64,000 nucleotides of DNA, taken from Hysterangium stoloniferum (taxonomy: Eukaryota; Basidiomycota; Agaricomycetes; Hysterangiales; Hysterangiaceae). The notes under the pieces are model-generated. The model did no database searches, was not told where the DNA came from, and saw nothing but the letters and a program-made list of their open reading frames with translations. Below, piece after piece: positions 5,639 to 60,935 of the stretch. Made by a program: the position numbers and the translations under genes. The number at the start of each line of letters is the position of its first letter. Position 1 is the first letter of the stretch. The stretch is taken from contig WHVD01000105.1 of the NCBI GenBank assembly GCA_015178975.1, positions 1-64,000 of the forward strand. Reading direction: 5' to 3'.

Positions 5639-5995
5639 AACGATTTAATCGGAGAGTAATAGCACTATCTCTGCTTGTGTTGATAAAATAGGTCGGCCTT
5701 ATCCAGAGAAATGATTTTATGTCGTGCCTAGATCGTGAGGAGGGCCTTTGACAGCCCAACCATAATTCTTCAAAACTGACGCGGAGTTTGAATGAGAGAG
5801 ACGTTACCGACACACTAGTGAGAGGTATGGCGATCACGGAAAGGAAGGGATGAAGAATGTGATTTACAAAATGTAGGCAGTTACTGCACAATTCGTCGTT
5901 GATTGAGCGGCGCATTATGTTACAATGTAGAAGGAAACGAGGGAGAATGGACATAATATTGAGCCTGCGGACTGTATACAAGACACAACTTGGTC
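5639..5995 (-). pseudogene. EWL family copy 1, C-terminal fragment
   Basis: On the minus strand the frame from about 5980 to 5740 matches the last ~80 residues of the EWL family (RRLNIMSILPRFLLHC, then MRRSIND and FLSVIAIPLTSVSVTS). Sequence below 5740 matches the first part of the downstream D module. Everything 5' of this piece is missing; at 5996 the sequence jumps into the D module of copy 2. The gypsy LTR inserted at, or recombined to, its 3' side. Confidence 0.75.
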
Positions 5996-7047
5996 GAATT
6001 GAAGACTCATCACTACAATGGTTTTGAGCGCTGGGAGGAAGACGGCGATGCTCCAGACGCTCCACCACATCAAGGCGCATGCTATATTACGGGGACTTCC
6101 ATCCGTGAGCCGGGAAGCTCAATTACCAATTCGCTCATCCATCTTCTTCTTCAAGACATCCCGTGTCCTTGGTACTTCTTCCCCTTCATATTCCTTCCTC
6201 AATAATTACGCGACAAAAATCAAATACACTTGTAATGAAGGATATGCAAGCCGCGGTCACAACATATGGGTCATTACATACGTGTCTCCCCGCAGGATTT
6301 GTTATATTTAATTTAGAACAGTTTGCCATCAGTCGTCATGGCATCTAAATTCCTCTCAATCTCCTGTATCGCTAAGCATCAGTTATAGCTGTACCAGGCC
6401 TCAAAGTGCTTTCGGGTGCTCATTTGGCCTTCTTTGGAATATTCTCGAATTTGCCGGTTTCAAGTAGGATCCCATGGGAGCGAGGCGCTCACCCATCGGG
6501 TCAAGGTTTCGACCGGAGAAAAATAGTTTATAAAATCCGCCTAACGCCGTCCGTGTACCTTGTACAGCCCCCTTCCTTTATTCCAGAGCTTTGTGCCTCA
6601 TGACGGCGAATAAGGATATTGAATATATGTTTTGAATACTAGATGAAACTGACCGAGATAATCGTCGCCCTCGAGTAGGGAGTGATTGTTGCGGGTGGTT
6701 TTTTGTCTTCTTCAATGACTTGCTTCATGCGGTCTTAACCGACATGCTGCTTCTTTGAGACTTCGGAGCAGTATTCTATTTGAAGTGATTCTAGGTGATA
6801 AATTCCATCTGATTCTGCGACTACTATCCAAGAATATATACAAGGTGAATATAGCATCAAGAGAAGCTGCCAAGCATACAAAGACGGTACAAAGTGGCTA
6901 TATGCGCTCTTAAATTGGCTCAAAATATGTAACTTTAAATTACCTGTAAATATTTACAAAAGGGGAGTTACGTCAAGAGAAATACTGCTATCCCTGCTCC
7001 AGGGTGGTATAAATTGTGTCGGTGTTATCAAAGAGAAATCATGATAT
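5996..7047 (-). repeat. EWL unit D module (downstream noncoding), copy 2
   Basis: About 1 kb that recurs next to the 3' ends of the EWL copies at 18142, 22331 and 45353 and inverted elsewhere. Landmarks in plus orientation are CACTACAATGGTTTT near 6011, the CTTCTTCAAGACATCCCGTG block near 6143 and the ATGGAACAAG block at its junction with the gene. No conserved long frame is visible. Confidence 0.75.
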
Positions 7048-8982
7048 ATCATGCGGAATGGATGGAACAAGTGGATCGGGAAGGCCAGCCACAGTCCTGA
7101 TCTGGAGTTTGAATTGGATGTTACGTACACACCGGTGACACATTTGGCAATGACGCAAAGGAAGGAATGAGCCATGAGGTGTAATTCCTCCAAGCGGGTA
7201 CGGGTGAACGGATCGCTGATTGAGCCACACATTGCGTCATAATGGGGAAGAAGACGAGCAAGAATGGAGATTATATTAAGGCTGCGCACTGTGGCGCACG
7301 CGAATTCGATGTCGGAAGATGTAGCTATCAGCTTCAGTGTAACCTTAATTAGTTTCTCCCCTGACGAGAGGACCCAGAAATCTGGACTCGTGTGTGCCAG
7401 AATTAGACTGGTAGGATATTTGAGGGCGGATATGAGATTATGCTGGAAGCTAAAACATTGTCAACATACCTTAGGAGGGGCTCAATGAGCGAAGAAACCA
7501 CATTAAGCTGGTTGATATGATCCGTGAGAAGCGTGCTGTCGTCGAAGAAGGTTTTTAGGGCCCAGATTCAATCAAAAAGTGGATATGAATCGTCCTCATA
7601 GATATGAAGTGTCAATGACGCTATATGGGGTTTTGTGTCGTCCATTAGAAGCTGCAATACATCTCCCGCAATATATCGAAACCAGGCATCTTGGTGCATG
7701 CAGCACACTAGGAGCCGTATCTGAAAGTAATGCGAGGATCGTCGGTATAGGTAATTTTCTCTGTTATGGTTTTGGTGGGCAGGATGACATGATTTGATGT
7801 CGCCACGCACGGTTGTAACAAGATTTCAATGAAACCTCTGATCGCATTGAGCTCCTCTACTAACAGTTGACGGACTTCGCAGATGCGTTTCACCATATAC
7901 GCAAATTCGTCAACGAGGAAGGGATATTGATGGCATGACATGTATCGTGCGATTTGTAGAATAAATGTCGACCCAACCTCATCCACGTTGGTGTGTAACG
8001 GTGATTTCATTACAGCATTGTAAAGCGATGACGTAATTGCAGTTGATGCCCGATCTCTATATCCCAAGTGAGTGCCGGGACACCAGTAGAAGGCCGAACC
8101 CAAATATATCATAAGGTTGGCATTGTGACCTCCGTTTCTCCGCTGTATGACCCATGAACTCCAGAAACCCTCTGAGACCACTGACGCCTGTTCTCGAATT
8201 CGAGGCGGGTAAGTGGGTCTAGCAAGACGTGAGTATTTTGAGTTTATTGAATGATTTCCTCAAAGTATCCCCACCTCATTAAGTCCATGGTCTCTTGAAT
8301 TACTATTCCGAGTCTTGGCAGATTGAGATGCTTGCGTAGGAACCTGTTGCAGGCCTTGTCGCCTCCATACACAATTCGCTTGTATATCATCAGCTTTGCC
8401 ATCAGTGCAGCTGTCTTTGCAGTGTAAAGCACACTCTTCCCAACCCTTTCCAAACCGACTCTACAGTAATACCCCGGCTCAATAGTAATACTTGAAGATG
8501 TCGATGAGCTCTCAAACGATGAGACCGCTCCCCACTCCCCGCCATGACTGTCATATGGGCCGAGGTTGGATGTGGAATTGGTGGATCTACCTCGCATATC
8601 AATAATCGTCGGTGGATCATGACAAGTTGTCTCTCCTAGCAACTGAAAGCGTCCAGTTTTTCAAAGTGTACATGGAAGGCTATCTGATTTTGCGCACCCA
8701 TTCCTCAACCCAAACTTCCACATCGTCTTCAGACAGTGCTATATGCTCGTCGTCTTCGGGAACTCGATAACACATACCGTCCCCGTGGTCTATACAGCTC
8801 CATCGGTCTCGAAGCTTGACCCGCAATCTTTCCTTTATCCCAGCGTCAATGATCTCCTCCCGTTCTTCTGAGCTCAATGCAGCTGGGGAGACCAATGGCT
8901 GTAACCACTCAACCTCTTGTAGAAGGCTTTCAGCCCGTCAGATATCGTGGCCGCTCAGAGTCGTTTCGTTTGAAGGTGACAT
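7048..8982 (-). pseudogene. EWL family copy 2, near full length
   Basis: All exon segments are present in order. Exon A runs from the ATG at 8982 (an in-frame TGA replaces a GGA codon near residue 15). Its conserved core reads CIDHGDGMCYR, so the usual second His is Asp here. Exon B (about 8642-8270) has PGYYCRVGLERVGKSVLY. Exon C (about 8190-7830) has TSSLYNAVMKSPLHTNVDEV, and exon D has HQDAWFRYIAGDVL. Exon D is closed by an indel near 7570 and the C-terminal segment runs 7290-7080. The usual short introns lie between A, B and C. Function unknown. This is one of the most complete copies but is not translatable as it stands. Confidence 0.8.
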
Positions 8983-9492: not shown

Positions 9493-9499
9493 AGCAATG

Positions 9500-9958
9500 T
9501 GTCAGTGTGTTGAAATGGCATGAAGCAAGTCACTGAAGAACAACAAAAAACACCCGCAATAATCACTCAGTAATCCATTGCTGACGTTAATCTCAGTGAG
9601 ATCCACCTAACCCCCAAACCCCATGTTCAATCTCCCGATTGGTTATGATGGGAAAAAAACTCTGGAATAAAAGGAGGGGCCCCCTTGACAACAGGGAAGG
9701 TGTTGGGCAAATTCCATAATGTCTTTTCCTTCATTCGAAACCTTTACCCCACGCTAGAGTGCCTAGTTCCCATAGGATCTAACTTACAACACAAACAACA
9801 ATTGTGAATATTTCACAGAAGGTCAAATGGGCACCACAAGGCACTTCGGAGATCAGTATAATTTATAACTGATCCTTGGCAATACAAGAGAAGTGTGAGG
9901 AAATCCAGATGCCATGACCACTTGATAGCAAACGTAGCCAAATTAGATATAACAAAGC
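9500..9958 (+). repeat. EWL unit D module, plus orientation, first part
   Basis: From the CATGAAGCAAGTCACTGAAG block (near 9520) through GTTCAATCTCCCGATTGG (near 9625) to ATATAACAAAGC. The copia LTR follows at 9959. The D module resumes near 11165, about 100 bp further along its consensus. Confidence 0.7.
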
Positions 9959-10220: not shown

Positions 10221-11178
10221 CGCTATAGTCACACTCGAGAAACTCACCAATAATGGGGAAAATTGGATCGCTTGGAAAAGCTGAATATTATCCATATTGG
10301 AATCAGGTGCACTGGTGAAACACATCAAAGGAAGTGTACAGTGCCCCCCAGATTCTACGATATATGTCACAGGAACTGTATTAACAAATGATCAATTAGA
10401 TCTCAGGGACAAGCAAGAGGAATGTTTGGATCATTACCTTGCACGTGAAGGATGAGTCAAACCTCAAATCTTTTTATCAGTCGGCCCATCTCTTATGCTC
10501 AGTCTGCAAAGACTTAGCATAGCAAGAGAAGTATGGGAGGCCATTTGCCAGGAATTTGAGTCGAAGCCGAAAATGGCCCAAGTCAATTTGCAGCACAGAA
10601 TGTGTGCTCTAAAATGCAAAGAAGGGGAAGATGTCCATTCCCACCTTGACACCCTAATAGAAATGCATCAGTGATTAGCAAGCATGGGAATGAACATAGA
10701 AGATAATGATTTCTTCAATATCATGCTGAGTTCACTCCCGGACTCATATGATGTCATGATGAATGTGGTAATGACTTCTGCAACAGCCACTGGGACTGTT
10801 TTAACCCCAACAAGCCTAATAACAATGATCAAAGCTGAATATGAGTGTAGGAAATCAAAGAAAGCCCCAAACTCAACTAATAACAATAATCAAGCCCTCC
10901 TAGCCAATACTAAAGGCCAGCGACAAAGTACAGGCCTTAGCAGTAACTCCTGGAACTCAAGAAATACCTCTACAGCTCAAAATCGAAATCTAACATGCTT
11001 CAATCTGAATTGCAGACAGATCGGGCATGTCATAGCTGATTGTTGGGCCAAAGGTGGTGGTAAGGAGGGGCAAGGACCAAGATATATGCACAGAAATTCA
11101 AGGCACAATAGCACAAACCAAAGGGTATACAATACAGGCAACAACAGGAATGCAAATATCGCAAATGAAGAGTCATAG
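10213..11178 (+). pseudogene. Ty1/copia Gag (UBN2-like) with zinc knuckle, inactivated
   Basis: The frame from ATG 10213 reads through three in-frame stops (about 10282, 10453 and 10672). The first and third fit TGG-to-TGA changes. Typical copia Gag features follow: NWIAWK near the start, a helical central region with AREVWEAICQEFESKPK and DFFNIMLSSLPDSYD, and a C-terminal zinc knuckle. The knuckle is oddly spaced as C-x4-C-x4-H-x4-C (CFNLNCRQIGHVIADC) instead of C-x2-C-x4-H-x4-C. No protease, integrase or RT follows; the element is cut at about 11162 where EWL D-module sequence resumes. Confidence 0.85.
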
Positions 11179-12052
11179 AAGCAGCAAAGACACGGGATGT
11201 CTTGAAGAAGACGAAGCATCAGTAAGTTGGTATTTGATCCGGGTCGCGCACGTAAGGAAGTCCCCGTGATCTAGAATGTGCCCGGATATGATGTAGCGTG
11301 TAAGGCTGTCGGTATCAGCCTCACTCGGTCAACACGGACAGGACTAAGTTTTCTTTATTTTTACATCTCAGTAGGATACAAGGTGAATGCGAGGTTCCCT
11401 AGGGAAGAGTGGGGAAAGGATTAATGGTCAAGGAGAAGATATTCTATCACTATAAGATATGGGGTTTTTATATAGAGTCAAGGTGAATGGGGTGGAAGAA
11501 CAAGGAACCGCATGATCAGGCACAGGGGTGCTACTTAACAATAAAGTGGCGGATCAATGAGTGGCTGATGGGAGAGGTTGGTGATGATGACCGCATGATA
11601 AGGCACAAGGGTGCTACCAAATGGCAGAACAATGAGTGGTTGATGGGAGAGGTTGGTGATGACGTATGTGGTAAGGTGGCCAGGCTTACATAGCGTCTGG
11701 AACAGCCTGGAGTATCCCAGAGAGCCGTTCTTCCTCCCAGCGCTTAACCATTTTAGTGATGAGTCTTCAATTGGTATAAGTCGTTTCTTACATTTAAATG
11801 GAAACCTCTTTGTGCGCCCGGATGGCGTTATGCTCATATTTCCACACACAAGCAACACAGTGAGACATCCAGTGGCCATTTTCCGGGTGAGTGCGGTCGG
11901 CCGCATCCGAGCACCTTTTGACATCTCGCACAGATAATTTCACGATTCCTGGTGATTCATAGTTGTCATCATTATTTATCTAAGGTTATTAGGCCTCCTC
12001 ACGTGGGGTTCAAGTAGCTATACTCCAAGTTGGGCCAGCGACTCCCTAATTG
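11165..12052 (+). repeat. EWL unit D module, plus orientation, second part (interrupted by a solo LTR)
   Basis: Resumes at GGACACGGGATGTC blocks (about 11188) and continues on both sides of the LTR at 11299-11690 to the CTAATTGACACAGATATA end. At 12053 it joins minus-strand EWL gene sequence, so this is an inversion or recombination junction. Confidence 0.7.
11299..11690 (+). repeat. Solo LTR, TGTAAGGCTG family (392 bp), TSD TAGCG
   Basis: Ends TGTAAGG...GGCTTACA and is flanked by the 5-bp duplication TAGCG (11294-11298 and 11691-11695). A relative lies in reverse at 51704-52015. This copy is 80 bp longer because an internal block beginning GCATGAT (about 11511 and 11593) is tandemly duplicated. 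Confidence 0.88.
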
Positions 12053-13275
12053 ACACAGATATAGAGGCGATCACGGAAAGGAAGGAAAGTACAATGTCAT
12101 TTACAAAATTTAGGCAGCTACTGCAAATTTGATCGTTGATTGAGTGGCGCATTGTGTCACAATGTGGACGAAGATGAGTGAGCATGGCGATTATATCGAG
12201 GTTGCGCACTGTCGTACATGCGGATTTGATGTCGGAAGGTCCAGCTATCATGTTGAGAGTCACCTCAATGAGTGTCTCGCTTGACAAGAAACCATATTAA
12301 TCTGGTTTAGATGATCCGTGACAAGCGTGCTGTCGTCGAAGAATGTGTCTAGGGCCCAGATATCATGCCACAGTGAAAGTGACCTGTCTTCATCGATCTG
12401 ACGTGTAAATGACGCTATATGGATGTTTATGTCGTCCACTATAGCCTTCAATACATCACCGGAAATATCTCGAAACCACGCATCTTGGTGCATGCAACGC
12501 ACGAGAAGCTGTATAACAGATTCATACTAGCAAAGTTGGTGTGAGTAATATGGTCTATTGTGGTTTTGGTGGGCAGGATGAAATGATGTGATGTCGTTAC
12601 GCACGGTTGTACCCATAATTCAATGCAACCTCTGAGCTCCTCTACAGACAGTTGACAGACGTAGCAGATGTTTTCGACAAGATACCCAAGTCGTCGAGGT
12701 GCAAGGGAGAATTGCATGGGGATGATATATATCCGACGATTTGTAGAATAAATGTCGACGCAACCTCATCCAGGTTGGTGTGTAAAGGTGATTTTATTAA
12801 AAATAGTATGAGTTGACTCTATTGCAATACACAATATACAAGGGTTTAATAAGCTTGTAATAAAAGTATTTGTTTCTCAATATCTTGTGTCAGTTAGTGT
12901 AGCACCTCCTGACTATATAGGTTGGATGCTCTGGGAGGTGTATAGTGGTTCTGACACACATTAACCTCCAAAAGCATGGTCCACAATTAGCATCTTCATA
13001 TGAAAAGTTGCAATAATTGGTGGACTCCCCCTATAAAAAGGTGTGTTTCATCATCAAATTTAACAGATTTGATGAGACCATAGTAAAGCGATGACGTAAT
13101 TCCAGTTGATGGCCGATCTCAATTTCCCCATCGAGCGCCGGGACACCGGTAGAAGGCCGCAGCCAAATATACCACACGCTTCGCAGTGTGACCTTCGTTC
13201 CTCCGCCGTATACCACTTGAATGGAACCCCTTTCAGACCACGAACGCATCTCGAATTCGACGCGGGCACCTTGGT
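12053..13275 (-). pseudogene. EWL family copy 3, exons C to C-terminus, split by a solo LTR
   Basis: Minus-strand sequence matches exon C (EFEMRSWSERG... down to 13070, resuming below 12794), exon D (MHQDAWFRDISGDVLKAIVDD at about 12502) and the C-terminal segment (RNLDIIAMLTHLRPHC at about 12220, then FLSVIASI). Exons A and B are missing. The copia-type solo LTR at 12795-13065 sits inside exon C. The frame shifts between 12700 and 12500. Confidence 0.75.
12795..13065. repeat. Solo copia-type LTR, TATTAAAAATAG family (271 bp), TSD GATTT
   Basis: Runs from TATTAAAAATAGTATGAGTTG to ATCAAATTTAACA and is flanked by GATTT (12790-12794 and 13066-13070). Other EWL copies read straight through this position, which proves the insertion. 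The start TATTA for the usual TGTTG fits G-to-A decay. A second copy is at 36723-36991. Confidence 0.9.
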
Positions 13276-13560
13276 ATGATCGTACTTTGTCATGATTATG
13301 CTCCTCGTTTCCCTCCCTGGACATTGAAGGTTCATGATGCGAACAGGATATGTAATATCTTGCCGCGTGTTATCATTGTATTTTCATTTTTCTATCGCCC
13401 TAGTGTGTTAATATATTGTGTAAAGTGTATATATTTTAATGCTTTTAAGCTTGCTTGTGTGTGTGGATTAGTCCATCATTGCATTCATTGTTATATGCAA
13501 GTTCAGAAGTTGACAGCTGGGTATCTCACTTGACGTGCCTTACCCGCATTTTATAGCACC
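13276..13560 (-). repeat. EWL D module, distal end, minus orientation
   Basis: Begins with the TTTGTCATGATTATGCTCCTCG end also seen at about 15935 and 20824, then the ATGCAAGTTCAGAAGTTGACAG block. At about 13560 it switches to plus-strand family sequence, an inverted join. Confidence 0.65.
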
Positions 13561-14915
13561 TTTGACGGGTGTGTCGGTTTCTCTCTAATCCGCACGCCAC
13601 ATCAGTGTTGAAGAATAATGGCTGGCGTGTCGAACGCCTTGATCCATGATACAGGCACGACATATAATTATTTCTTTGGATAATGGCAACACATCTTATC
13701 AAAACCAGGAGGATAGACAGTGCTCTTACTCCCTACTCGAATCTTTTTGTAACCGGATTTAAAAGTTGTGTAACCCTACATAGTGTGGGTAATTGATAGC
13801 GCATACATTCACTTTTTAGCATCGTCAGGTTTTTCGTAGCTCCTCGTTCATTCCAAACACATGTAAAATAATATTCGCGAGGCTTAGCGGTGGCTAGAAT
13901 CGCCCAGGATTTATGAAAGACAACGAGTCCACATAGAATAAGGCCATTGAAGGGAACCAAAGAACACCCGCAACAATCACTCACTAATCCATGGCCACGT
14001 GTATCTCGGTCAGACTCATCTAACCTTCAAAGGCCATATTCAATCTCCGGATCGGGTATCACGAGGCACAAAACTCGGGTCTTTAGACCATACAGGGACC
14101 GTGTTAGGCGGATTCCATCAAGTATTTCTCTCCATTGGAAACCTGGACCCGACGTGGGAGCGCATTGTTCCCATGGGATCCGACTTGGAACAAACGATAG
14201 TCGTAAATATTGCAGAGAAGGTCAAACGAGCACCTCGAGTCACTTTGAGACCGGTGTAATGTATAACTGATGCCCGGGATACAGGAGAAGTGCGATAAAT
14301 CTAGATGCCATGAGCACAGGTCGAAAACGGTTCTTCATCAGATATAACAAAGCCTGCCGGGTGACACACCGTTATATGTCCAATATCCTATGTGCGCGGC
14401 TTCAACATCTTTGATCACAAGTGTAGTTGATTGGTTGTCCGAAATTTCGTGAGGGACGGAAATGAAGCGAAAGAAGCACCACGGACACGGGATATTTTGA
14501 AGAAGACGAAGCATCTGTAAATTGGTATTCGATCCGGACGGTTCAAGCAGGGAGGTCCCGGCAATTTACAATGCCTTGGAGCATCCCAGATAGCCGGACT
14601 TCCTCACAGCGCTTACAACCATTTTACTCGTGAGTTTTCAATTTGACCAACTCATTGATAAACACTTTCCTTAAGCGGAACATTTTTGAGCACCTGCCGG
14701 CATTCGTGTTCCGAGTACGGCAAACAAGGACCAGTGTGAGAGATGTTGTCGCCATTTTCCGGGAGAATACGCTCCTCGGCCTCCGAACTCCTTTTGCCAT
14801 CTCTCACCGACCATTGCACGATTCTTGGCGATTCAGAGGTCTCGGGATTATCTCTCTAAAGGTTTTAAGCCTCATCAGGCGGGATTCAAGTGACCATTCT
14901 CAAGTTATCATTACC
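13561..14915 (+). repeat. EWL C-terminal tip plus D module, plus orientation
   Basis: Opens with a decayed copy of the last exon tip (GGGTGTGTCGGTTTC near 13566) and continues through about 1.3 kb of D module in sense orientation: CCAGGAGGATAGACAG at about 13707, CCCATGGGATCCGACTTGG at about 14172 and GGGATATTTTGAAGAAGACG at about 14489. It ends with CATCAGGCGGGATTCAAGTG. No conserved frame. Confidence 0.65.
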
Positions 14916-15924
14916 GGAGGCATAAGGTTCATAGCATGAAGTTTTTCTACCACTGTCACTCTGGGTGCTGGTTTTGTGGCATCATATCTCATGCCGCAGA
15001 CTTTTTTTCCACACTTCTCCGCTCGGAGCCTTATGCTTTCCGACGAGCCTTTCCCTTGTTAGCTGACGCAAAATACTTCACTCAGAAGGCGGGTGCAATA
15101 ATAGTTCGCCATCCATTACTCGGCGGCATTAAAAATATCGTGAAAAATATCTGCAATGTCACAATGCCACTATATTTGTCCAGGCGGTATTCGTATATTT
15201 GGGCTTATTTTCATATGAAATGAATGAAATTTGATTGCTTTGATGTGTTTTTCTCAGCCGTAATGTTATTTATGGAGTTGAAGGCCATCGTCGGACTCAA
15301 TCGTGCACTCTGTCCCGATCGTAGTTTAATTGAGAGGTTGTCGCTAAAAAAAAGCATGTGAGGCCGACCCCGTAACTGATTCCTACCCCAGGCAGTATCA
15401 AAATGGAGATTTGGTGAGAACATAAAGTAACAACAAAGGTCGCTAATATCTTTGCAGCGTCTCACCAGTGTCTTATAATCTTTGGTGACCGCCCATTCCA
15501 CCTCCACCCCCTCCTCATGTGAGGATTGTAACCACAAGCGGACATTCCTCGGCTCTTGCTCCCAATAACCATCCTATGGCAGCACGTAAGAACAGGTGCA
15601 ATTCAAAGCCATCTTCAAAACTGCTTAGGAATAGCATTAGCGAGCCCTCGTGTTCAGCCAGCCTCAAGATCCTGACTTCTACCCACGATCAAAAGCTGTG
15701 GCCCGCCCTCACCAGCACAATGAAAATACATGACCTTCACCCTTCCTTCCTCCCCCGCTCTTTTTCACTTAAACCCGCCGAGCAGGAGTCCTATCGACGG
15801 AAGCGTCGCTAGTCCAAAGTCGCAATCACTCCTCCGCTTCCTCTCTTTCCAGCTTGAGTTGGAGTCCTCTGTCTTTTCCCAGCCACCTGGATACCTATCG
15901 TGACGGGAATATTGATATTATTGA
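14916..15924. other. Unassigned spacer, no gene recognised
   Basis: About 1 kb that does not match the EWL modules. Short frames of up to 108 codons exist on both strands (such as 15211-15537 minus) but none has recognisable composition or domain. It may be unique sequence or a very old repeat. Confidence 0.4.
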
Positions 15925-18141
15925 ATTTTGTCATGATTATACTTCTCATTTCCCTTCCTGGACCTCCAAGGTTCATGATCCGAACAGCATATGTAATATC
16001 CTGCCCGCCTGATTTATTGTTGTATTGTCATTTTTTATCGCCCTAGTTTTTCAATATATATTGTGTAAAGTGGATATACTTTTATACTTTGAAGCTTGGG
16101 TGGTTTTTGCGTATTAGTGCATAATTACATAGATTATTATATGCAAGTTCAGAAGTTGACACCGGGTACCTCGCCTGACGTGCCTGACCCGCATGTTATA
16201 TCTATATCTTTGTCAATGAAAGAGTGGCTGGTGGTCTCACCTGGAGTATAGTCACTTGAAACTGACCTGAGGAGGCCTTTAGATAGATAATGATTAAAAC
16301 GCTGAATCGCCAGGAATCGTGCAATGTTCGGTGAGAGATGGGAAGAGGTGCTCGGACGGCGAGCACCTCCCCTCAATAATGGCGACCTGATGTCTCATTC
16401 TGTTGCTTCTTTGTGGCAATAGGAGCACAAAGCCAGGCTGCTCAAAGCGGTTCCGTTTAAATAAAAGAAAAGACTTGTTCGAATTGAAAACTCATCACTA
16501 CAATGGTTTTAAGCGCGAGGAGGAAGACTGCTCCAGACGCTACACCGTGTCCAGGCGCGCATTCTAGATTACGGGGACTTCCTTCCGCCCGGATCAAATA
16601 CCACTTGACTGATGCTTCGTCTTCTTCAAGACATCCCGTGTCCTTGGTGCTTCTTCCTCTTCATTTTCCTCCCTCAAGCCGTAGTCATAGAATATCAGTC
16701 ATAGACATGTGTGCCACCCGGTACGCCTTTTTATGTCTAATTTAGACCCATTTCCTATCAAGTGGTCATGGCCTCTGGCTTTCTCACACTTCTCATGTAT
16801 TGCTAAGCATCAGTATACACTATACCGGTCTCAAAAGTGCCTTGAGGTGCTCGTGTGACCTTCTTTGCAATAGTCTAAATGGTCCTTTTCCTCAAGTCGG
16901 ATCCCATGGGAGCGCCACGCTCCAGCATCCGGTCAAGGTTTCGGATGGGGCGAAATACTGAATGTAATGTGCCCAACGCCATCGCTGTACGTTTCAAAGG
17001 CCCATTTTCTCATTCCAGAGTTTGTTTGGAGATTAAGTGAATCTGACAGAGATAACCGTCCGCATGTATTGGTGGATTGCCGGTGTTGTTTGCTGCTCTT
17101 CAATAACTTGCTTCATGCTATCCCCACTAACTGCCAGGCTTCTTCCTTTGAAATGTCCGAGTGGTATAAATATTTTAAGTGATTCTCGTTGAGAAATCGG
17201 ATGTGATTCTTGCCACTACTAAGGCCCCCCAATATATGCAATGTGGGCATAGCATCGACGAGAACCTGGCAAGGACACAAGGGCGGTTGGGAGTGACTAT
17301 ATGCGCTCTTGAATTCGCTCTAACTATGTAGCTGTTCATAAATTAGGAATATTGCCAAAAGGGGAGTTAACTAAAGAGTAATAGTACTATCCTTCCTTTG
17401 GTTCGCATAAGGTGTCTGTGCTCTCCAAGAGAAGAGGTGATATAACATGCAGAATGGATGGAACAGCAGGCTGTTTATCTCTCATTTCGAACCGTTTGTT
17501 ATCGAGTGGTCATGGCAACTAGATTGTTCTGACATCTCCTACATCGCTAACCATCAGCTATACATTATATCGGATATCGGTCTCAAAAGGGTCTCGGGGT
17601 GCTCGTTTGACCTTCTTTGCATTATTCGCGATTGTCGTTTTTTTTTTTTTGAAGTCGGATCCAATGGGAGTGAGGGACTCCATCATGGTGTCAAGGTTTC
17701 GAATGGAGAGACATAGTTTGTGGAATCTTCTCAACGCCATCCCTGAACGCTTTCAAGGCCACTCCTTTCAGTCTAGATTTTTGTGTCTCATGATGGCCAA
17801 TCAGGAGATTGAGCATATATTTGAAATATTAGATTAATTTGACCGAGATAACACACTTCTTTCTTTGACACCTTCGAGTGGTATTCTATTTGAGGTGATT
17901 CTCGTTGATATGTCAGATGTGATTATAACCACTACCAAGGCCGACGAATATATCCAACGTGTACATAGCATCAACGAGAAGCTGCCAAGCACACAAAGGC
18001 GGAAATGGGTGACTATATGCGCTCTTGAAATAGCTCAAACTATGTCGCTTTACATAAATTAGAACTATTTATCAAAGACGAGAGTAATATGACTATTCCT
18101 CCTCTTGGTTCGGATAATGTGTCAGTGTTATCCAAGAGAAA
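15925..18141 (-). repeat. EWL D module, full length plus partial duplicate, minus orientation
   Basis: The most complete D module: distal end at GAATTTTGTCATGATTATAC (about 15932), then TGCAAGTTCAGAAGTTGACA at about 16142, GGTTTTAAGCGCGAGGAGG at about 16505 and CCAATATATGCAATGTGGGC at about 17230. At about 17470, right after the ATGGAACAG block that should lead into the gene, it jumps back and repeats the proximal ~650 bp of D (17470-18141) before the gene of copy 4. This is a partial tandem duplication. Confidence 0.75.
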
Positions 18142-39472: not shown

Positions 39473-39474
39473 GT

Positions 39475-39484
39475 ATTTTCTGAC
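39475..39484 (+). promoter_or_regulatory. Self-complementary primer-binding site
   Basis: ATTTTCTGAC, two bases after the LTR end, is the reverse complement of GTCAGAAAAT at 39150-39159, ten of ten bases. This fits self-priming of reverse transcription as in Tf1-like gypsy elements. No tRNA 3'-end match is evident. Confidence 0.6.
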
Positions 39485-39508
39485 TACCACTCGCAGATTG
39501 TTTTCATT

Positions 39509-44212: not shown

Positions 44213-45352
44213 TGAGTAAGCACTGTGAGGAAGTCCGGCTATCTGGGATGCTCCAAGGTATTCCAGTTCGGCCGCATTCTAGATTGCCGGGACTTCCCTA
44301 CCGTCCGGATCAAATACCAATTTACAAATGCTTCATCTTCTTCAAAACATCCTGTGTCCTTAGTTCTTCATCCTCTCCATTTCCTACCCTCAAGAACTTT
44401 CGGTCAACCAATCAACTGCACTTGTCATCACAGATATTGCACTTGCGGTCACAGAGTATCCGTCCTATACAGGTGTCGTCTGGCCAATTTTGTTTTGGCT
44501 AATTTACCACCGTTTGCGATCAAGTGGTCATGGCATCTAGATTCCTTGCACGTCTCCTGTATTTCCAAGCACCAGCTATACATTATCCCGGTCCAAATTA
44601 GGAACGTTTGTAGAAAGTGATGGATGGTATCTACATTCCTCCCAGTTCGCCCGTAGCGCTACCTAGGGGGGACATTTATCTTTCTATGGGATGTTTTGGT
44701 AGGAAGAATTTGAGAAATATAATTCTATTTTTCAAATCTGAACCCAAGGGAAGGAGGCGCTACAGGGTCGGGTTATGACAGATAATACAGAGACATGCGT
44801 TATGAAATCTGTCCCATGCTGTCCCCGTGTGCTTTGAAGGTCCCTCAGTTTATTCTAGAGTGTTTTGCCTCAAGAACGCGGATTTTGAGATTGAACATTG
44901 GATTTTGATCGCAAGATGAGCTTGAACGAGCGAATCGTCGGCATGGATTTATGCGTGATTGTAGCCAGTGTTCTTTGTTGTTCTCCTGTAACTTGTTTCG
45001 TCCTATCCCAAACTATCGCGCTGCTTTCTTTGAGAACTCCGAGGATATTCCATTTGACATTAGTTTTTTTTCGTAAATCGCATGTGATTCTAGCCACTAA
45101 TAGGGAACCACGACTATATGCAACTACGTGTGGATAGGATCAGAAATAAGCTACAAAGCTGAAAAGGTGACTTTATGCGCTCTTTAATTGGCTAACCTTT
45201 TGTAGCTTTAAAGAACTTTGAAATATTGCCAAAGGCGGATTAAGTAAAGAGTGATAGCACTATCCTTCCTCCTGGTTCGGATAATGTGTCGGTATTATGC
45301 AAGGGACATTATTGTATATCGTGCGGAATGGATGGAACAAAGCATGGGCAGG
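44213..45352 (-). repeat. EWL D module, copy 10 (partial)
   Basis: From GGAAGTCCGGCTATCTGGGA through CATCTTCTTCAAAACATCC and TTGCCAAAGGCGGATTAAG to the ATGGATGGAACAAAGC junction. The distal ~500 bp of D is missing. Confidence 0.72.
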
Positions 45353-48597: not shown

Positions 48598-50490
48598 ATG
48601 CCAACTTCAAACGAAACGACTCCGAGTTGCCACGACATCGGACGGGCTGACAGTCTCCTACAAGTGGTTGAGTGGTTACAACCCTTTGTCTCCCCAGCTG
48701 CATTGAGTTCAGAAGACCGGGAGGGGATCATTGACACGGGGATAAGGGAAAGATTGCGGGTAAAGCTTCGGGACCGTTGGGGCTGTATCGACCATGGGCA
48801 CGTTGTGTGTTATCGAGTTCCCGAAGACGACGAGCATATACCACTGTCTGAAGATGATGTCTAAGTTTGGGTTGAGGAATGGGTGCGCAAAATGACATAG
48901 CCTTTCATGTACATTGTTGAAAATTGGACCCTCTCAGTGGCTAGGAGAGACAACGTGTCATGATCCACCGACGATTATTAACATGCGAGGTAGATCCACC
49001 AACGCCACATCCAACCTCAGCTCACATTACAGTCATGATGTGGACTGGGGAGTGGTTTCGCTGTACGAGAGCTCATCGACATCTTCAAGTATTAAAATTG
49101 AGCCGGGGTATTATTGTAGAGTCGGTTTGGAAAGGGTTGGGAGGAATGTGCGTTACGCTGCAAAGACAGCAAAGTTGATGATATACAAGCGAATGGCGCA
49201 TGGAGATGACAAGGCCTGTAACAGGTTCCTACGCAGGAATCTCACTCTTCCAAGACTGGGAATAGTAATTCAAGAGACCATTGACTTATTGAGGTGGGAT
49301 ACTTCAGAGCCAATGATTGAATACATTCAAAATACTCACGTCTTTCTAGACCCACTTATCCGCCTCGAATTCAAAAACAGGCGTCGCAGATCTTAGAGGG
49401 GTTCTGGAATTCAAGTGTTATATAGCAGAGGAGCGGAGGACACACTGCCAAGCTTATGGCATCTTTGGGTTTGGCCTTCTACTGGCCTCCTGGCGGTCCA
49501 TGGGGGAATAGAGATCGCCCATCAATTGCAATTACGTCATCGCTTTACAATGCTGCCATCAAATCACCTTTTCACAACAACGTGGATGAGGTTGCTTCGA
49601 CATTCATTCTGCAAATCGCCGGAAATTTATCATCCTTTTGTGAAAGTACCTTCCTCCTCACCCAACTTGGGTTCATCGTGAATGATCTTTGCTGGGTGAG
49701 TCAATTGTCTGTAGAGGAGCTCGCTGCTATCAGAGGTTGCTTTGAATTCTGGGTACAACCGTGCGTCGCGACATCACATCATTTTATCCTGACCACCCAA
49801 ACAATGACAGACAAAATTCACCACGCCAACATTCCTTGCGTCTCCTATATTGCTTCTCCTTTGTTGCATACCCCAGGATGCCTGGTTTCGGGATATTTCT
49901 GGAGATGTATTGAAGTTCTAGTGGACGACACCAACCTCCATATAGCGTCCCTGACTCATTATATCGATGAGGGCACATCGTATTCACTGTTTTGTGATAT
50001 CTGTGCCCTGAAATCCTCTTCAACGACAGCACACATTGCACGGATTACATCAACCAGTTTAATGTGATTTCCTCCCTCATTGAACCCCTCCTCCGGTACG
50101 TTGACAATGTTTTACCTTCCATCATCGTCTCATATCCTCCCATGAAAATACCCTGCCAGTCTGATTCTGACACACAAGCGTCCAAATGACTGGCTCCTGT
50201 GTGCAGGCGAAGCCCTGATTGACGTCACTCTGAAGCTGATAGCTGGATCTTCCGCCATCTAATCCGCGTGTACCACAGTGCGCACCCTCGATATAATCGC
50301 CATTCTCAATCTTTTTCCCCAACATTGTGACGCAATGTGTGGCCCCATCAACGATAAATTCACCCGTAGCCGCTTTGAGACATTACACCTCATTGGTCAT
50401 TCCCTCCTTTCCGTCATCGCCACACCTTTTACCGGCGTGTCGGTAACCTCTAATTCGAACTGCGCATCTGCGCTAGAGCATTATGGTTGA
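48598..50490 (+). pseudogene. EWL family copy 11, best gene model of the family
   Basis: Exon A is 48598-48882 (285 nt), intron 1 48883-48937 (GTGCGC...CTCAG, 55 bp), exon B 48938-49293 (356 nt), intron 2 49294-49349 (GTGGGA...TTCTAG, 56 bp) and exon C 49350-49752 (403 nt). Phases are 0, 2 and 0, and the joined frame reads EEW-WLGETTCHDPPTI and DLLR-PTYPPRI. A third intron probably starts GTACAA at 49753; exons D/E follow to 50490. Exon A has CIDHGHVVCYRVPEDDEHIP. Lesions are GAA-to-TAA at DDV-*-VW, CAG-to-TAG in exon C (NSSVI*), and a 1-nt loss near 49916. The predicted product of ~550 residues is soluble, without signal peptide, membrane segment or domain I know. Function unknown. Confidence 0.83.
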
Positions 50491-50830
50491 CCTTCCATGC
50501 CACACGTTGTTTCTCTTGGATAAAACCGATCCATTATCCGATCCCGGAGGAAGGGCAGTGCTATTACTCTTTACTTAATCGCCTATGGGAATATTCTTAA
50601 TTTATGTCAAGCTGCATAGTTTGAGCCAATTCAAGAGCGCATATAGTCACTTTTTACCGCCCTTGTGTGCTTGGGAGCTTCTCGTTGATGGTATAAAGAC
50701 GTCGCATATATTGGTGGGCCCTAGTAGTGATTAGAATGATATACGATTTATCAACAATAATCACTTCAAATATAATACCACTCGGAGGTCTCAAAGCAAG
50801 CAGCGTGTCAATTAGTTGGCATTACACACC
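50491..50830 (+). repeat. EWL D module, copy 11 (proximal part)
   Basis: GAGGAAGGGCAGTGCTATTA, TTCAAGAGCGCATATAGTC and ACCACTCGGAGGTCTCAAAG, then at about 50830 an abrupt switch to U-module sequence of the next copy. A deleted unit boundary. Confidence 0.72.
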
Positions 50831-51600: not shown

Positions 51601-52190
51601 ATGTCAACCTTAAATGAGACGACTCTGAACAGCTACAGTATTGGAGGGGCTGAACGCCTCCTACAAGACCTGTGTGGCTACAACGCTTGGTTTCCCCGGC
51701 TATTGTAAGGCCACCTTACCACATACATCATCACCAACCTCTTCCATCAACCACTGATTGTCCCGCCACTTGATTGTTAAGTAGCGCCCTTGTGCCTGAT
51801 CATGCAGTTCTTTGTTCTCCCGCCACATTCACCTTGACTACATAAAAACCCATGTCCTATAGTGATAGAATCAATCTTCTCTTTGACCATTAATCCTTTC
51901 CCCACTCTCCCTAGGGAACCTCACATTCACCTTGTATCCTAGTGATATTTAAAAATAAAGAAAACTTAGTCCTGTCCGTGTTGACCAAGTGAGGCTGATA
52001 CTGACAGCCTTACAGCTATATTGAGTTTGGAATCCCAGGACATCAATGACACGGGAATGAGGGAAAGATTCCAGATGAAGCTTTGAGAACGATGTAGCTG
52101 TCTCCAACACCAGGATTGTTTATGTTCTCAAGTACCCAATGACGACCAGCACATACCACTGTCTTAAGAAGATGTGGAAGTTTGGAGGGT
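51601..52190 (+). pseudogene. EWL family copy 12, exon A split by a solo LTR
   Basis: ATGTCAACCTTAAATG starts exon A at 51601. The LTR at 51704-52015 separates it from the remainder, which reads DTGMRERFQMKL, then a TGA, then CSCLQHQDCLC and HIPLS. It is cut at about 52188, before the end of exon A. No later exon follows. Confidence 0.78.
51704..52015 (-). repeat. Solo LTR, TGTAAGGCTG family, minus orientation (312 bp), TSD GCTAT
   Basis: Reverse complement of the family at 11299-11690. Flanked by GCTAT (51699-51703 and 52016-52020). Inserted into EWL exon A. Confidence 0.88.
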
Positions 52191-52420: not shown

Positions 52421-52539
52421 GTCAAGACATACATCTCATTTTATATAGGTTAGAGCATGTTTAATGATGTATGTAATATAACCACCTTTTCTGGCCTTTC
52501 TCTACGAGTTGTCACATATCTGGAATAGGAGTAGAGATC

Positions 52540-53750
52540 AATTGGGACAAGTCTTTTCTTTTATTTAAATGGAACCTCTTTGAGCACTGGCTGGCATTAT
52601 GCTCCTAATTCCACACACAAGCAACAGAGTGAGACATCCCGTCACCATTATTCAGGTGAGTGTATTTGTCATTGTCTGATTTTGCCATCTTACACTAACC
52701 ATTGTACAATTATTGGAAATTCAGAGTTGTCATCATTATGTATCTAAGGTTAGTAGGCCTCCTCATGTGGGGTTCAAGTAACTATCCTTCAATTTGGGCC
52801 ACCAGCCACTCTCTAATTGACACAGATATGTATAGATATACATACCACATGGGTAAGGCATGGCAAGTGAGATTCCTAACTGTCAACTTCTGAACTTGCA
52901 TATAACAAGCAATGGAATGATAGGATAAATACACACATACACACAAGCTGTTAAGAACAGAAAACTGACTAATGTTGGTTGGCCAACAGGGACTGATCAG
53001 AAGGACTTGGCTTCAGCTTATGTGCTGCACCCTCACAAGTTACCATGAGGTGTCCTTAAATTTCAGGCAGGCAAAGACTAGTCCTAACGAGTTCCTCATG
53101 GTGAGTTACCAATCAGAGTCGAAGGATAAGTCGTGTGTCAGGCCAAGGGGTCAGAGGCCGAAGAGAGGTGAGCACACGCAGAGGTGGGGAGTGGGATACT
53201 TAGTGGAAGGCTTATAGAGATGTATTTGGGTGTTCTGAGTCAATATTCTGATTGCCTAGTAACTACAGCTACAGTGGATTTATATACGAGTCATTGGCAT
53301 CTAGAAAATACTAACTAAGGGAAGAGTGGAAAATGCTATTGACAAATAAGCTTGACTAGGAACTGGAAGGTTACGATAAGTTTGGAGGCTGTGATTTATC
53401 TGAGAGAGGAGTTATGAGAAAAGAAAATAGTCCACGGGTTACAAGTATATACAGGCATATGTGAAACATGGAGTAGAATGGATCATCATAATAAAGAAAG
53501 GGATGTATCAAAACATAACCAGATAGTACGAGTATAACTTGACAGGGGCGTAAATGGGTTTGATTGCCATGAAAGCATATGTTAGCATTGGGCAACTGAC
53601 AGCTTCCAATGTGATGACTTGATTGATAACTTGAAACATCGATAGGCAGCAATAACCTTGAAGACCATTGGGTTGCGACACAGTTGCGCCATGGTCGTAA
53701 CACAAGCTCAGAGCATTAAAATATAACTACTTTACAAAATATCTTAAAAA
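52540..53750 (+). repeat. EWL D module, distal part, split by a solo gypsy LTR
   Basis: GTCTTTTCTTTTATTTAAAT through CTGTCAACTTCTGAACTTGC to ACACACAAGC. After the LTR (52949-53702) it resumes as CAAGCTCAGAGCATTAAAAT and stops at about 53750, where the minisatellite begins. Confidence 0.72.
52949..53702 (-). repeat. Solo gypsy LTR, minus orientation (754 bp), TSD CAAGC
   Basis: TGTTAAGAACAG...GGTCGTAACA on the plus strand, flanked by CAAGC (52944-52948 and 53703-53707). Same terminus family as 38655-39472. It contains the conserved LTR box at 53003-53033 and, on the minus strand, a TATATAAA box at about 53279-53286. Confidence 0.88.
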
Positions 53751-54344: not shown

Positions 54345-56127
54345 AAGATGCAATGTGGGAGAAGACGTTCGAGAATGGCAATCATATCGAGGTTGCGCAC
54401 TGTGGTACATGCGGATTCGATGTCGGAAGATCCACCTATCAGGTTCAGAGTGATCTTAATATGTTGCTCGCCTGACCAGAGGAGCCACGAAGGTGGACTC
54501 GTGTGCGTCAGAATCAGACTGATTGGATAGTTTCATGGGCATATATGAGACGATTCTGGAAGGTAAACCATTACCACGGGAGCGGCTCAATGAAAGAAGA
54601 AACAACATTCAGCTGGTTTATGTGATCGCTGCTGAGCGTGCTGTCCTTGAAGAAGGTTTGCAGGGCCCAGATATCATGCCGCAGTGAATACGATGTGTCC
54701 TCATCGATATTCACACTCAAGGACGTTATATGGAGGGCTTTTTCGTCCACTATACCCTTCAAAAAATCTCCAGCAATGTCTCGAAACCAGGGATCTTGGT
54801 GCATACGACACACGAGAAGCTGTATCGGAGATTCATACAAAAGACCTCGGTGGGGGGATTTTGTCTGTTGTGGTTTGGTGGGCAGGATGAAAGGATGTGA
54901 TATCGCGACGCATGGTTGTAACCAAAATTAAATACAACCTCTGATCGCAGTGAGCTCCTCTACAGACAATTGACCTTGGTCATCTTCCATCAATAGACCG
55001 CATTTTGAAAAGCGAGTCAACGTGGCTGACCAATTTCACAATATCCCCAAGGTAGCCGAGGAGAACGGTACTTTTAGACAAGGATGATAAATATCCGGCG
55101 ATTTTTACGATAAATGTCGACGCAACGTCATCAAGGGTGGTGTGTAACGGTGATTCGATGACCGCATTGTAAAGCCATGACGTAATTGCAGTTGATGGTC
55201 GATCTACATCTGACAATCGAGCTCCAGGACAAAATAGTAAGGTAAAACCTAAACAAGTCATCAGTTTTGCAGTGTGACCGTCCCCCCTCCACTGTTCAAC
55301 ACTTGAAAACCAGAACCCATCTAAGACCACTGACGCCTGGTGTCGAATCCGAGACGGGTAAGTTGGTCTACAAAAACGTGAGTGTTTTGAGTGTATTCAA
55401 TGATTGACGGTGCTTTATCCCTACCTCATCAAATCAACGCTCTCTTGAATTATTCTTCCCAGTCTTGGCGGCGTACGATACTTCTGTAAAAACTTGCTAA
55501 AGTACTTGTCGTTTCCATATGCACGTGCTATTCTCTCGTATATCGTCAACTTTGCCATCAGCGCAGCATTCCTTGCGGTGAAAAGCACTTTCATCCCAAC
55601 ATTTTCCAACCCGACTCCTAAGTAATATCCTGGGCCAATTTCAATACTTGAAGATGAGCTATCAGCCAGGGAGCCCACTTTCCAGCCGATTTTATGGCTA
55701 CGATATGGACTGATGTTTGATGTCGTGTTGGTGGATCTTCCTCGTGTTTTAATAATACTTGGTGGGTCATGTCAATTTCTCTCTCCTTGACACTGAAAAC
55801 ATTTGTTGTTAACAGTGTACATTTGACAGGAAATTTCATGTTGCGCACCCATTCCTTCACTTCGACTTCTTCTTCAGACAGTGGTGTGTGCTGGGCCTCT
55901 TCAGCTGCTCGGTCACATAAACCGTGCCCATGTTCGGGACAGCTCCATCGTTGTCGAAGCTTCACCCGGAATCTCTCCTTTATGCGCGCCTCAATTATCT
56001 CCTCCCGTTCTTCTGCGTTCAATGCAGCTGGGGAAACCAAGGGTTTGAGCCACTCAACCTCTTGTAGGAGGGTCTCATCAGGTACGATATCGTGTCTGCT
56101 CAGAGTCGTCTCGTTTGACGTTGACAT
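54345..56127 (-). pseudogene. EWL family copy 13, exons A to part of the C-terminal segment
   Basis: The start codon is at 56127. Exon A is open (EVEWLKPLVSPAALNAEER, then CPEHGHGLCDRAAEEAQHTP), with VW deleted near its end. Exon B has PGYYLGVGLENVGMKVLF at about 55650-55590 and closes at LMR (55421). Exon C spans 55330-54980 (TAITSWLYNAVIESPLHTTL) and exon D about 54870-54590. The C-terminal segment is cut by the LTR fragment at about 54340. Exon A, most of exon B and exon C are individually uninterrupted. Confidence 0.82.
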
Positions 56128-57395: not shown

Positions 57396-57399
57396 GAAA

Positions 57400-58420
57400 A
57401 TATTTCCATGGCAGATAGTTTGGAACGACAGGCGTTCAATGATACGGAAATGAGGCAAAGGGTCTGGGTAAAGCCTCGATAACTATGGAGTTGTCTCCAA
57501 CATGGGCACGGTTTATGTGACCGAGCACCTGAAGACGACCAGTCAAACTGTTTGAAGAAGTTGTGGCCGTTTGGGGGGAAGAATGGATGGATAAAACGAA
57601 ATATCCTTTTTATTTCCACTTTTCACATACCGGATGTTTTCAGTTCCCAGGAGACAGAAATTACCATGACACCCCCAGCGAGTATTAAGATGCGAGGGAT
57701 ATCTACTAACAACACATCTAACCTCAGTCCACATGAAAGACATAACATGGACTGGGGAGCGGCCTCATTGAATGAGAGCTCATCTTCAAGTATTGAAATT
57801 GGCTGGGTGTTACTGTGGAGTCGGGTCGGAAAGGGTTCGGATGAATGTCTTTACAACGCCAAGAGCACTTCACCTACTGCACAGTTGGCGACATAAGAGC
57901 GAATTGCGCGTGGACCAGGGCGAGACCAGAAGGTCATCGACAAGTTTCTACACAAGTATCTCAATCTGTAAGACTGGGAATACTAATTCAAGAGACCGTG
58001 GATTTCACGGGGCAAGGATACAACAGTGTCACTCATTAAACACGCAGAATATACTTAATGTTTGTAGACCCATATACTTTCCGAATTTGACAACAGGAGT
58101 CAGTGGTCTTAAGGGGGAGGTCTGCATTTCAGATGATATACAGCGGAGGAACGAGGGACACACTGCCAAGCTTTATGACAGCTTTGGGCTTTGCCTTGAA
58201 GTGGTGTCCCGGCGCTCGATGGTCAGATACAGATCGGCCAACAACTGCAATTACGACATTCCTTGATAATATTAGAAGCAAATCACCGCTACACACCAGG
58301 TTGCATCAAGGTTTATCGTAAAAATCGTTGGGGATTTGTCATGGAATACATCCTTTCCTGGCAACACCTTCCGTCTGATTCGAACTCCACATCAGTATTG
58401 GAGGCACATGCATGGTTCCC
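57400..58420 (+). pseudogene. EWL family copy 14, parts of exons A, B, C and the C-terminal tip
   Basis: Exon A lacks its first third and is frameshifted (GTTGTCTCCAACATGGGCAC encodes the Cys/His module). Exon B is open at about 57645-57895 (PPASIKMRGISTNNTSNLSP). Exon C (58080-58330) has decayed AKLYDSFGLC-type text. Exon D is skipped: the sequence jumps at about 58360 to the C-terminal SNSTSVLEAHAW tip. Confidence 0.72.
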
Positions 58421-59148: not shown

Positions 59149-59482
59149 TAGATAACGTGAGCCTGAATTGCGCAAAGATATAGCGCTCAAGAAGTCGTAA
59201 GTTGCCACATTATGCGGTGAAGGCTCATCAAACTATTCGTAGGTGTCATATGTGCCCTCTGCCGTAGACGAACCGTAGACGATTTGTTGAAGAGCAAGAA
59301 ATTATCCATAGTGAGTGAACTTGAGAGAACAGCTTCAAGTCGTGTAACAGGAAGGGAAGAAACGCTGTGTACGCTGCATAAAACACCGCCACAATGCTAT
59401 ACCTTGAGATTCATGCTCCTGATAACTGAAACTTACAAGCGCAGCATCCCCTTCCAGTATAACAACAACCTGCTACCCACCA
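59149..59482 (+). repeat. EWL U module, copy 15
   Basis: CAAGAAGTCGTAAGTTGCCACATTATG begins the block. GTAGACGATTTGTTGAAGAG, GAAGGGAAGAAACGCTG and CAACCTGCTACCCACCA follow, before the start codon. Confidence 0.72.
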
Positions 59483-60205
59483 ATGTCAATTTCAAACGAA
59501 ACGACTCTGAGCAGCGACGATGTCGAAGAGGCTGAAAGTCTCCTACCAGAGGTTGAGTGGCTACAACCCTTGGTCTCCCCAGCTGCAATGATCTCAGTAG
59601 AAGGGGAGGAGGTAGTTGATGCGGCGATAAGGGAGAGATTCCGGGTAAGGCTTCGAGACCGATGGAGCTGTATCGAACATGGGCACGGTGTGTGTTATCG
59701 AGTTCCCGAAGACGACCAGCATATACCACTGTCTGCAGAAGATGTGGAGGTTTGGGCTGAGAAATGGGTGCGCCAAATGGGATAGCATTTAATGCATACT
59801 ATTGACAAACTGGACGCATTCAGTGGCTAGGAGAGACAAATTGTCATGATCCACCGATTATTATTAAAATGCGAGGTAGATCCACCACCGCCACATCCAA
59901 CCTCAGTCCGCATTATAGTCATGACGTGGACTGGACTGGGGAGTGGGTTCACTGTATGAGAGCTCGTCGACATCTTCAAGTATTAAAATTGAGCCGGGGT
60001 ATTACTGTGGAGTCGTGTTGGAAAGCGTTGGGAAGACTGTGCTTTACAGTGCAAAGACAGCTGCACTGGTGGCAAAGTTCATGCTATACGAGCGAATGGT
60101 GTATGCAAACGACAAGGCCTGCCTTCAATTGGTGTCTCAGCGCTCGATGGGCAGATAGAGATCGGACATCAAGTGCAATTACGTCATCGCTTTACAATGC
60201 TTTAA
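59483..60205 (+). pseudogene. EWL family copy 15, exons A, B and a piece of C
   Basis: Exon A is uninterrupted (59483-59770: EVEWLQPLVSPAAM, then CIEHGHGVCYRVPEDDQHIP). Intron 1 is present. Exon B has a 6-bp duplication (GTGGACTGGACTGGGGAG) and reads GYYCGVVLESVGKTVLYSAK to about 60118. At about 60120 it jumps into the middle of exon C (RWADRDRTSSAITSSLYNAL) and at about 60206 into the end of another exon A. Two in-unit deletions. Confidence 0.78.
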
Positions 60206-60935
60206 TCAAATCACTGTGTGGAGGAATGGGTGCGTAAAAAGAAATGCCATTTTTATGTACACTGTTCACAGACAGGATGTTTTCAGTCCCAAGGAGACAA
60301 ATTGCCACGAACCACCGAATAATATCAAAGGATGAGGGAGATCCACAACGCCACATGGATACTTAGTCTATCTCATACGCATGACATGGCCTGGGGAGTC
60401 GTCTCATCGCCGGATAGCTCATAGTCCAGTGTGTAAATTAGCCCTGAGTATTCCTGTGGAGTCGGTTTGGAAAGCGTTGGGATGAAAGTGCTTTACAGAG
60501 CAAAGAAAGCTTCGCAAATAACAAAATTGATGATATACGAAAGAATGACGTGTGGACCACGGGAAGGCCATAACGTCGTTGACATGTTTCTCCTCAGGTC
60601 TGTCACGCCGCCACGACTGGGAATAATCGTTCAAGAGAGCGTTGATCTAATGAGGCAGGGATAACACAGCATCAATCAGTGAATACACGTACAATCCTTA
60701 CGTTTTTCTAGACCCACTTACCCCCCTCCAATTCTACAACAGCCGTCAGTGGTATTAGGGGGGATCTGGAATTCGAGTGATATGCAGTGGACAAACCATG
60801 GCTTGGGCCTTCAATTGGTGTCCCGGCGCTCGATGGGCAGATAGAGATCGGACATCGACTGCAAATACGTCATCGCTTTAATCAAATCACCGCCACACGC
60901 CAACTTGGATGAGGTTGCATCAACATTAGATGACT
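60206..60935 (+). pseudogene. EWL family copy 16, end of exon A, exon B, part of exon C
   Basis: Starts with the last codons of exon A (GGAGGAATGGGTGCGT). Exon B of the second subfamily is 60260-60660 (MESVGMKVLYRAKKASQITK, RLGIIVQESVDLMRQG). Exon C remnants follow (CCCGGCGCTCGATGGGCAG at about 60823), ending at about 60935 in GAGGTTGCATCAACATTAGA. The family's clustered run ends here. Confidence 0.75.

Follow-up and report, generated by a model that had tools for sequence, protein, structure and literature searches.

What is the intron-containing gene that recurs through the first 64 kb of Hysterangium stoloniferum contig C8, and does it survive intact anywhere in the genome? The contig is 303,632 bp long, in a genome of 111 Mb and 554 contigs; its first 64 kb, the whole stretch analysed here, are referred to as the window. 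H. stoloniferum is an agaricomycete of the Hysterangiales, and its genome is counted among those of the ectomycorrhizal Phallomycetidae in PMC7550596. The window's copies are dead members of a very large family, known to date from a single species, which also has intact members elsewhere in the genome. We consider the chances somewhat better than even that this family is an intracellular recognition repertoire that operates, without a NOD domain, much as the repeat domains of fungal NOD-like receptors (NLRs) do, and in which the face of a solenoid binds variable targets.

Gene structure, intact members and family size

A blastn search with one intact gene, in which matches were grouped, finds seven long copies and about ten fragments on both strands of the window, between 5748 and 60927. 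These approximately 17 copies or fragments agree with a preliminary description of the window, which had reported sixteen copies of an intron-containing gene. All seven long copies are broken, with 2-7 frameshifts and 1-8 in-frame stops each, although in two incomplete copies these counts are partly due to unrelated sequence. Splice sites of the GT-AG type are present at all four introns in four of the seven, and at three of four in the others: a copy at 22-24 kb without a recognisable exon 1, a copy at 42.4-43.7 kb that ends in exon 4, and a copy at 54-56 kb that lacks one splice donor.

The complete structure is seen in a gene on contig C149 (52599 to its stop at 54536): four introns (56, 55, 50 and 64 bp), each bounded by GT-AG, interrupt the coding sequence of a product of 570 residues, P0003. 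The preliminary description had proposed two introns, of 55 and 56 bp; these sizes are found at introns 1 and 2 of the window copies at 7039-8982 (minus strand) and 48598-50590 (plus strand), but the number of introns is four. Among 64 mapped copies, comprising 56 of the 67 loci L010-L076, the C149 gene and seven window copies, 19 are intact: 14 by a strict rule (13 and the C149 gene) and five more that end one codon earlier. Eight overlapping loci (L021, L029, L030, L032, L038, L042, L046 and L048) were left out of the mapping, and three partial copies (L033, L036 and L040) were skipped. The mapped loci were drawn non-randomly from the best protein matches, and 19 of 64 is not a genome-wide estimate; some non-intact calls may also reflect the early end of a fetched piece or a slip in pairwise alignment (e.g. 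L066 and L070). Four of the 19 spliced intact proteins, from contigs C522, C8, C106 and C149, are identical letter for letter to deposited proteins (P0001, P0005, P0002 and P0003).

The protein of about 570 amino acids carries a conserved N-terminal module, C-x4-H-x2-C-x8-H (hereafter CHCH), the CHCH residues of which are invariant. The module is likely to be zinc-binding, and it may resemble a widespread, uncharacterised basidiomycete pattern. In a longer subfamily (P0015-P0021, 763-1005 amino acids), three or four strict CHCH modules stand in series at the N-terminus and are followed by a related C-terminal helical part which, in P0015-P0018, appears by eye to be less variable than in the short clades. 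Two further peculiarities were observed: intact copy L026 has, starting at residue 505, ten consecutive MRGS-like tetrapeptides, of which the remaining 18 intact copies have at most one, and in P0013 the C-terminal repeat block looks, by eye, as if duplicated in tandem.

Across the genome there are 451 matches, with at most three mismatches, to a 28-base pattern taken from the end of exon 3 (214 forward and 237 reverse). The reversed pattern, used as a control, has 0 and 0, which rules out chance as the source of the family. Among the matches listed, about four-fifths lie on contigs C522, C8, C106 and C149, and those on C522 extend from 14 kb to 1.28 Mb. The earlier view of a clustered, intron-containing multigene family is borne out.

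Selection on the codons and the predicted fold

Site models fitted to the 19 intact genes place 9.5% of codons at a ratio of nonsynonymous to synonymous substitution rates (dN/dS, or omega) of 3.9 (twice the log-likelihood difference, 2dlnL, 212; 565 codon columns). On the 539 gap-free columns, 36% of codons fall at omega 0.17, 56% at 1 and 8.4% at 4.0 (2dlnL 188), and the comparison of M8 with M8a on the same columns gives 183, with 10.7% of codons at 3.35. The signal of positive selection is present in each clade alone (2dlnL 89.8 in clade A, 28.0 in clade C and 37.8 in clade B, from which L014 was omitted as near-identical to L012) and also when the strongest block is removed (100.4), whereas 20 null data sets simulated under M1a reach at most 7.2. 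The preliminary description had called amino-acid differences between copies largely conservative; this fails in the C-terminal part, 8-11% of codons being at omega 3.4-4.

The whole-gene fit identifies 26 selected sites, at residues 224-262, 309-319, 358-363, 406-414, 455-460 and 517-520. These clusters are mostly 47-61 residues apart and tend to one helix face, as judged on a helical wheel of 100 degrees per residue rather than on a surface. Selected sites partly recur between clades: four of the 11 sites in clade C are exactly clade A sites and seven lie within three residues of one (p 0.0006), and in clade B the corresponding counts are one and four of six (p 0.012); clades B and C have no exact site in common. 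Because copies recombine, nine segments were refitted, each on its own tree. Six gave significant results, all within 204-560; segments 348-400 (p 0.098), 1-93 and 94-203 did not. Within clades (28 pairs), dN/dS is 0.55 in residues 1-159 and 1.33 in stretches around the selected sites, against 0.66 for the remainder of the solenoid; the value of 1.33 is not an independent test, as the stretches were drawn around those sites.

Averaged over whole genes, the picture is less marked. Mean dN/dS among 13 intact genes, calculated by skipping codons with gaps, or with stops in broken copies, is 0.79 within each of clades A and B and 0.71 between the two. By the yardstick of the preliminary description, which had looked for values well below 1, such means are near neutral, but the site models reveal a mixture of purifying, neutral and diversifying codons. 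Its suggestion that selection acted on the family until recently suits the dead copies of the window, but intact genes that bear signatures of selection exist elsewhere in the genome. Divergence is lower in introns than in exons (0.092 versus 0.103 in clade A, 0.096 versus 0.157 in clade B and 0.217 versus 0.277 between them), which is unusual for plain purifying selection; short introns do, however, carry constrained splice motifs.

The C-terminal region is predicted, with moderate confidence, to be helical and to resemble an armadillo/HEAT solenoid. Armadillo proteins rank highest in the Foldseek list, and the VIA list contains many armadillo and HEAT proteins; identity is 6-14% in the rows listed, and global superposition is poor. 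A first AlphaFold model, built from five sequences, had a predicted local distance difference test score of 42 and was kept out of the fold searches. In having a predicted helical solenoid, the family would be like importin alpha, beta-catenin, CAND1 and transportin; unlike these armadillo/HEAT proteins, it is hypervariable and matches no Arm or HEAT profile.

Database searches returned little else. Pfam yielded, for P0001-P0005 and P0013 at an expectation value (E) of 1 or less, only COQ9_N (0.17, P0004) and three models at 0.11-0.25 (P0013), none above cut-offs, and for P0014-P0018 at E of 0.5 or less only CBM9_1 (0.17). None of these 11 family proteins has a Pfam match to NACHT or NB-ARC, to WD, ANK or TPR repeats, or to Arm or HEAT; a strongly diverged TPR could nevertheless be present, given that a helical solenoid is predicted. 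NCBIfam gave nothing above cut-off in four family proteins, the sole match among PDB sequences (RBM22, E 0.65) is not credible, and a viral structure library gave weak matches only (best E 0.075). Word searches of limited sensitivity against 5.8 billion database proteins found no relatives outside H. stoloniferum, the 13, 15 and 10 matches all being hypothetical proteins of this species. These searches require shared five-residue words, and two of them scored only the best 7994 and 7989 candidates by shared words; distant relatives may therefore exist. With no credible match in Pfam, NCBIfam, PDB sequences or the protein database, we, like the preliminary description, recognise no known transposon or host family for the protein.

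Duplication, exchange and the copies of the window

A sampled 17.5-kb stretch of C522 holds five copies, one of them partial, or about one per 3.5 kb. The same stretch is repeated 500 kb away over approximately 16 kb, with short gaps and at 90-98% identity; in this one pair of blocks compared, therefore, the family has spread at least partly by block duplication. Two genes are mosaics. The first 150 codons of L015 are nearest to clade B1 (mean 85-90%, versus 70-76% to clade A) and its last codons are nearer to clade A, while L020 belongs to clade A overall and is nearest to clade C at 289-347. Downstream of the C149 gene, at a distance of 353 bp, there is an antisense fragment of the hypervariable segment of exon 3 (about 54890-54980), and antisense matches outside the locus's own exon 3 were found in eight of 12 loci (L049, L051-L054 and L058-L060) as well as in the reference gene. 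Such a fragment could be a gene-conversion donor, a hairpin former or a relic.

Within the window, introns with GT-AG ends throughout are found in the broken long copies at 7039-8982 (minus; 55, 56, 50 and 62 bp), 18142-20111 (minus; 56, 55, 50 and 64 bp), 45309-47241 (minus; 56, 57, 53 and 65 bp) and 48598-50590 (plus; 55, 56, 50 and 64 bp), in the last of which similarity stops at about 50497. The broken copy at 22305-23796 (minus) retains recognisable exons 2-5, and in that at 54351-56127 (minus) the donor of intron 3 is AT and the end of exon 5 is not recognisable. A truncated copy at 42353-43674 (minus) comprises exons 1-3 and part of exon 4; its open reading frame (ORF) of 363 amino acids, 42302-43393, crosses intron 2, which is 57 bp long and contains no stop.

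The remaining pieces were found by blastn. On the minus strand, a 3' fragment at 5748-5982 corresponds to 1670-1901 of the reference gene (71-76%), and a fragmented copy at 12129-13210 consists of pieces at 12129-12273, 12303-12797 and 13066-13210. The others are on the plus strand: a short 3' fragment at 13557-13629 (75%); a rearranged copy at 25401-26746 with a partly duplicated exon 3 segment (25401-25691 and 25693-25923); the 5' part of a clade A copy at 35883-36571, which is 91% identical to the intact C149 gene and has upstream homology, with gaps, to 34252; an exon 2-3 fragment at 41932-42337, 90% identical to clade A, that adjoins the oppositely oriented truncated copy; exon 1 fragments at 51657-52182 (51657-51701 and 52015-52182); the 5' half of a diverged copy at 57421-58298 (71%); a 5' fragment at 59540-60214 with a short exon 3 piece (60121-60214); and a fragment of exons 1-3 at 60216-60927 (73%).

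Amid these copies a second repeated block was observed at 5990-6717, 9518-9958, 11164-12031, 13945-15105, 16239-16776, 21109-22106, 44217-44597 and 52538-52829. It also occurs downstream of the C149 gene, no conserved full-length ORF was found in it, and it may represent another gene in decay. Two successive ORFs that share a frame, 679-1932 and 1942-5016 (plus), belong to a long-terminal-repeat retroelement of Gypsy type by domain make-up (aspartyl protease, reverse transcriptase, RNase H, integrase zinc-binding and Tf2-1-like domains), 39212-40783 (plus) is a retrotransposon gag ORF, and 10684-11178 (plus) a copia-type gag remnant. Between copies, at 28897-32195 (minus), an NLR-like gene extends over several ORFs, with an NPHP3_N segment and a NACHT match below its cut-off; its long ankyrin-repeat ORFs have repeats that are about 80-90% alike.

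A proposed recognition repertoire and its alternatives

Our preferred reading builds on computed features (gene structure, intact members, selection, mosaicism and one block duplication) and on a predicted fold. Intact members would be proteins of about 570 residues, probably intracellular, in which a likely zinc-binding CHCH module, mainly under purifying selection, precedes a predicted armadillo/HEAT-like solenoid with some positions, tending to one face, under strong diversifying selection. For cell location, ligand binding and signalling we go by inference: the solenoid face may bind variable targets, whether non-self, parasite or mobile-element products, and the conserved N-terminal module may relay a signal or recruit a partner. 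The family turns over by growth, at least partly through segmental duplication, by recombination between copies and by the decay of many of them. From a recognition repertoire one would expect this combination of many genes, shuffling, rapid birth and death, a variable solenoid face and a CHCH end that is conserved.

The closest parallel is found in fungal NLRs, for which hypervariable WD, ANK or TPR repeats are described in self/non-self recognition (PMC4986451). These receptors (NACHT or NB-ARC proteins with such repeats, among them the Podospora het-d/het-e/hnwd family) form a large multigene family with superstructure-forming repeats, positive selection at fixed repeat positions on the binding surface and exchange between members (PMC4986451, PMC1805685, PMC2873952). 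The Hysterangium family likewise is a large multigene family with positive selection at repeated positions of its repeat domain and with sequence exchange (L015 and L020). It differs in having no NOD domain found, helical ARM/HEAT-like repeats that are predicted and have no Pfam match, a CHCH module where fungal NLRs have a known effector domain, and hundreds of copies, dense where sampled. As no NOD domain was found, we do not class the family as NLRs, though it may work like them.

Several observations complicate a simple reading of the selection signal. Synonymous divergence (dS) is also 1.9 times higher in the hypervariable stretches, the bootstrap interval of the pooled ratio of nonsynonymous to synonymous differences (pN/pS) there is 0.99-1.73, and three B1 genes have a ratio of 1.17 even outside these stretches. 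The signal therefore resides in individual codons, probably with a contribution from the exchange of old variants.

Foremost among the alternatives, though in our view improbable, are selfish killer/protector genes or meiotic drivers, amplified by drive, in which continued divergence would keep each protector specific to its own killer. The killer/protector drivers wtf of fission yeast and Spok of Podospora are lineage-restricted, mosaic and fast evolving, with many dead copies. The Hysterangium family resembles them in its many broken copies, its mosaics, its fast evolution under diversifying selection and its distribution, so far restricted to one species. However, selection that tends to one face of a predicted solenoid fits the binding of varied partners better, and reading of the sequences, with no predictor run, gave no evidence of a killer/protector pair, no two-product gene and no membrane segment.

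We rank next, and consider unlikely, a role in genome defence, in which the solenoid would bind nucleic acid and track evolving transposons. Nucleic-acid binding by an armadillo-like solenoid is known from Pumilio, and mammalian KRAB zinc-finger proteins track transposons. The CHCH module, the retroelement ORFs beside the window copies and the fairly regular spacing of the hypervariable patch along the solenoid would all suit such a role. On the other hand, residues at the hypervariable sites are diverse (W, Y, R, S, D and many others), with no base-reading code obvious by eye, and Pfam scans of the 11 family proteins found no nucleic-acid domain.

That the family is functionless, its pattern produced by neutral drift and gene conversion, we regard as very unlikely, even though all seven long window copies are broken, 45 of the 64 mapped copies are not intact, mean dN/dS is 0.71-0.79 and dS is raised in the hypervariable segments. 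Purifying sites and sites of omega about 4 coexist in a repeated pattern, the CHCH residues are invariant, and 19 intact genes retain all splice sites. Least probable of all is that the gene is the coding region of a mobile element not yet recognised: homology between copies extends over about 3.4 kb, beyond the gene, an inverted repeat (196 columns, 68%) flanks it and matches occur in both orientations (214 and 237), but the family proteins have no transposase, reverse transcriptase or integrase match in Pfam or NCBIfam, upstream junctions differ among the loci listed (upstream side viewed), and the approximately 16-kb block duplicated on C522 is multi-gene.

If the family is indeed a recognition repertoire, it may also be one independent of NOD-like receptors. 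We put forward tentatively, at somewhat less than an even chance, a fungal system of immunity or allorecognition that is based on an armadillo-like solenoid with a constant CHCH end. Its hundreds of copies, many of them intact, would be spread over more than 1 Mb of one contig, densely where sampled, and would owe their diversity to positive selection on one face and to recombination with one another. The open-licence literature searched contained neither an armadillo-type hypervariable fungal family nor an account of this Hysterangium family. Such a system would widen the range of receptor designs, as an ectomycorrhizal basidiomycete would have a family of this size in which selection of the same kind acts on another predicted scaffold and with no NOD domain.

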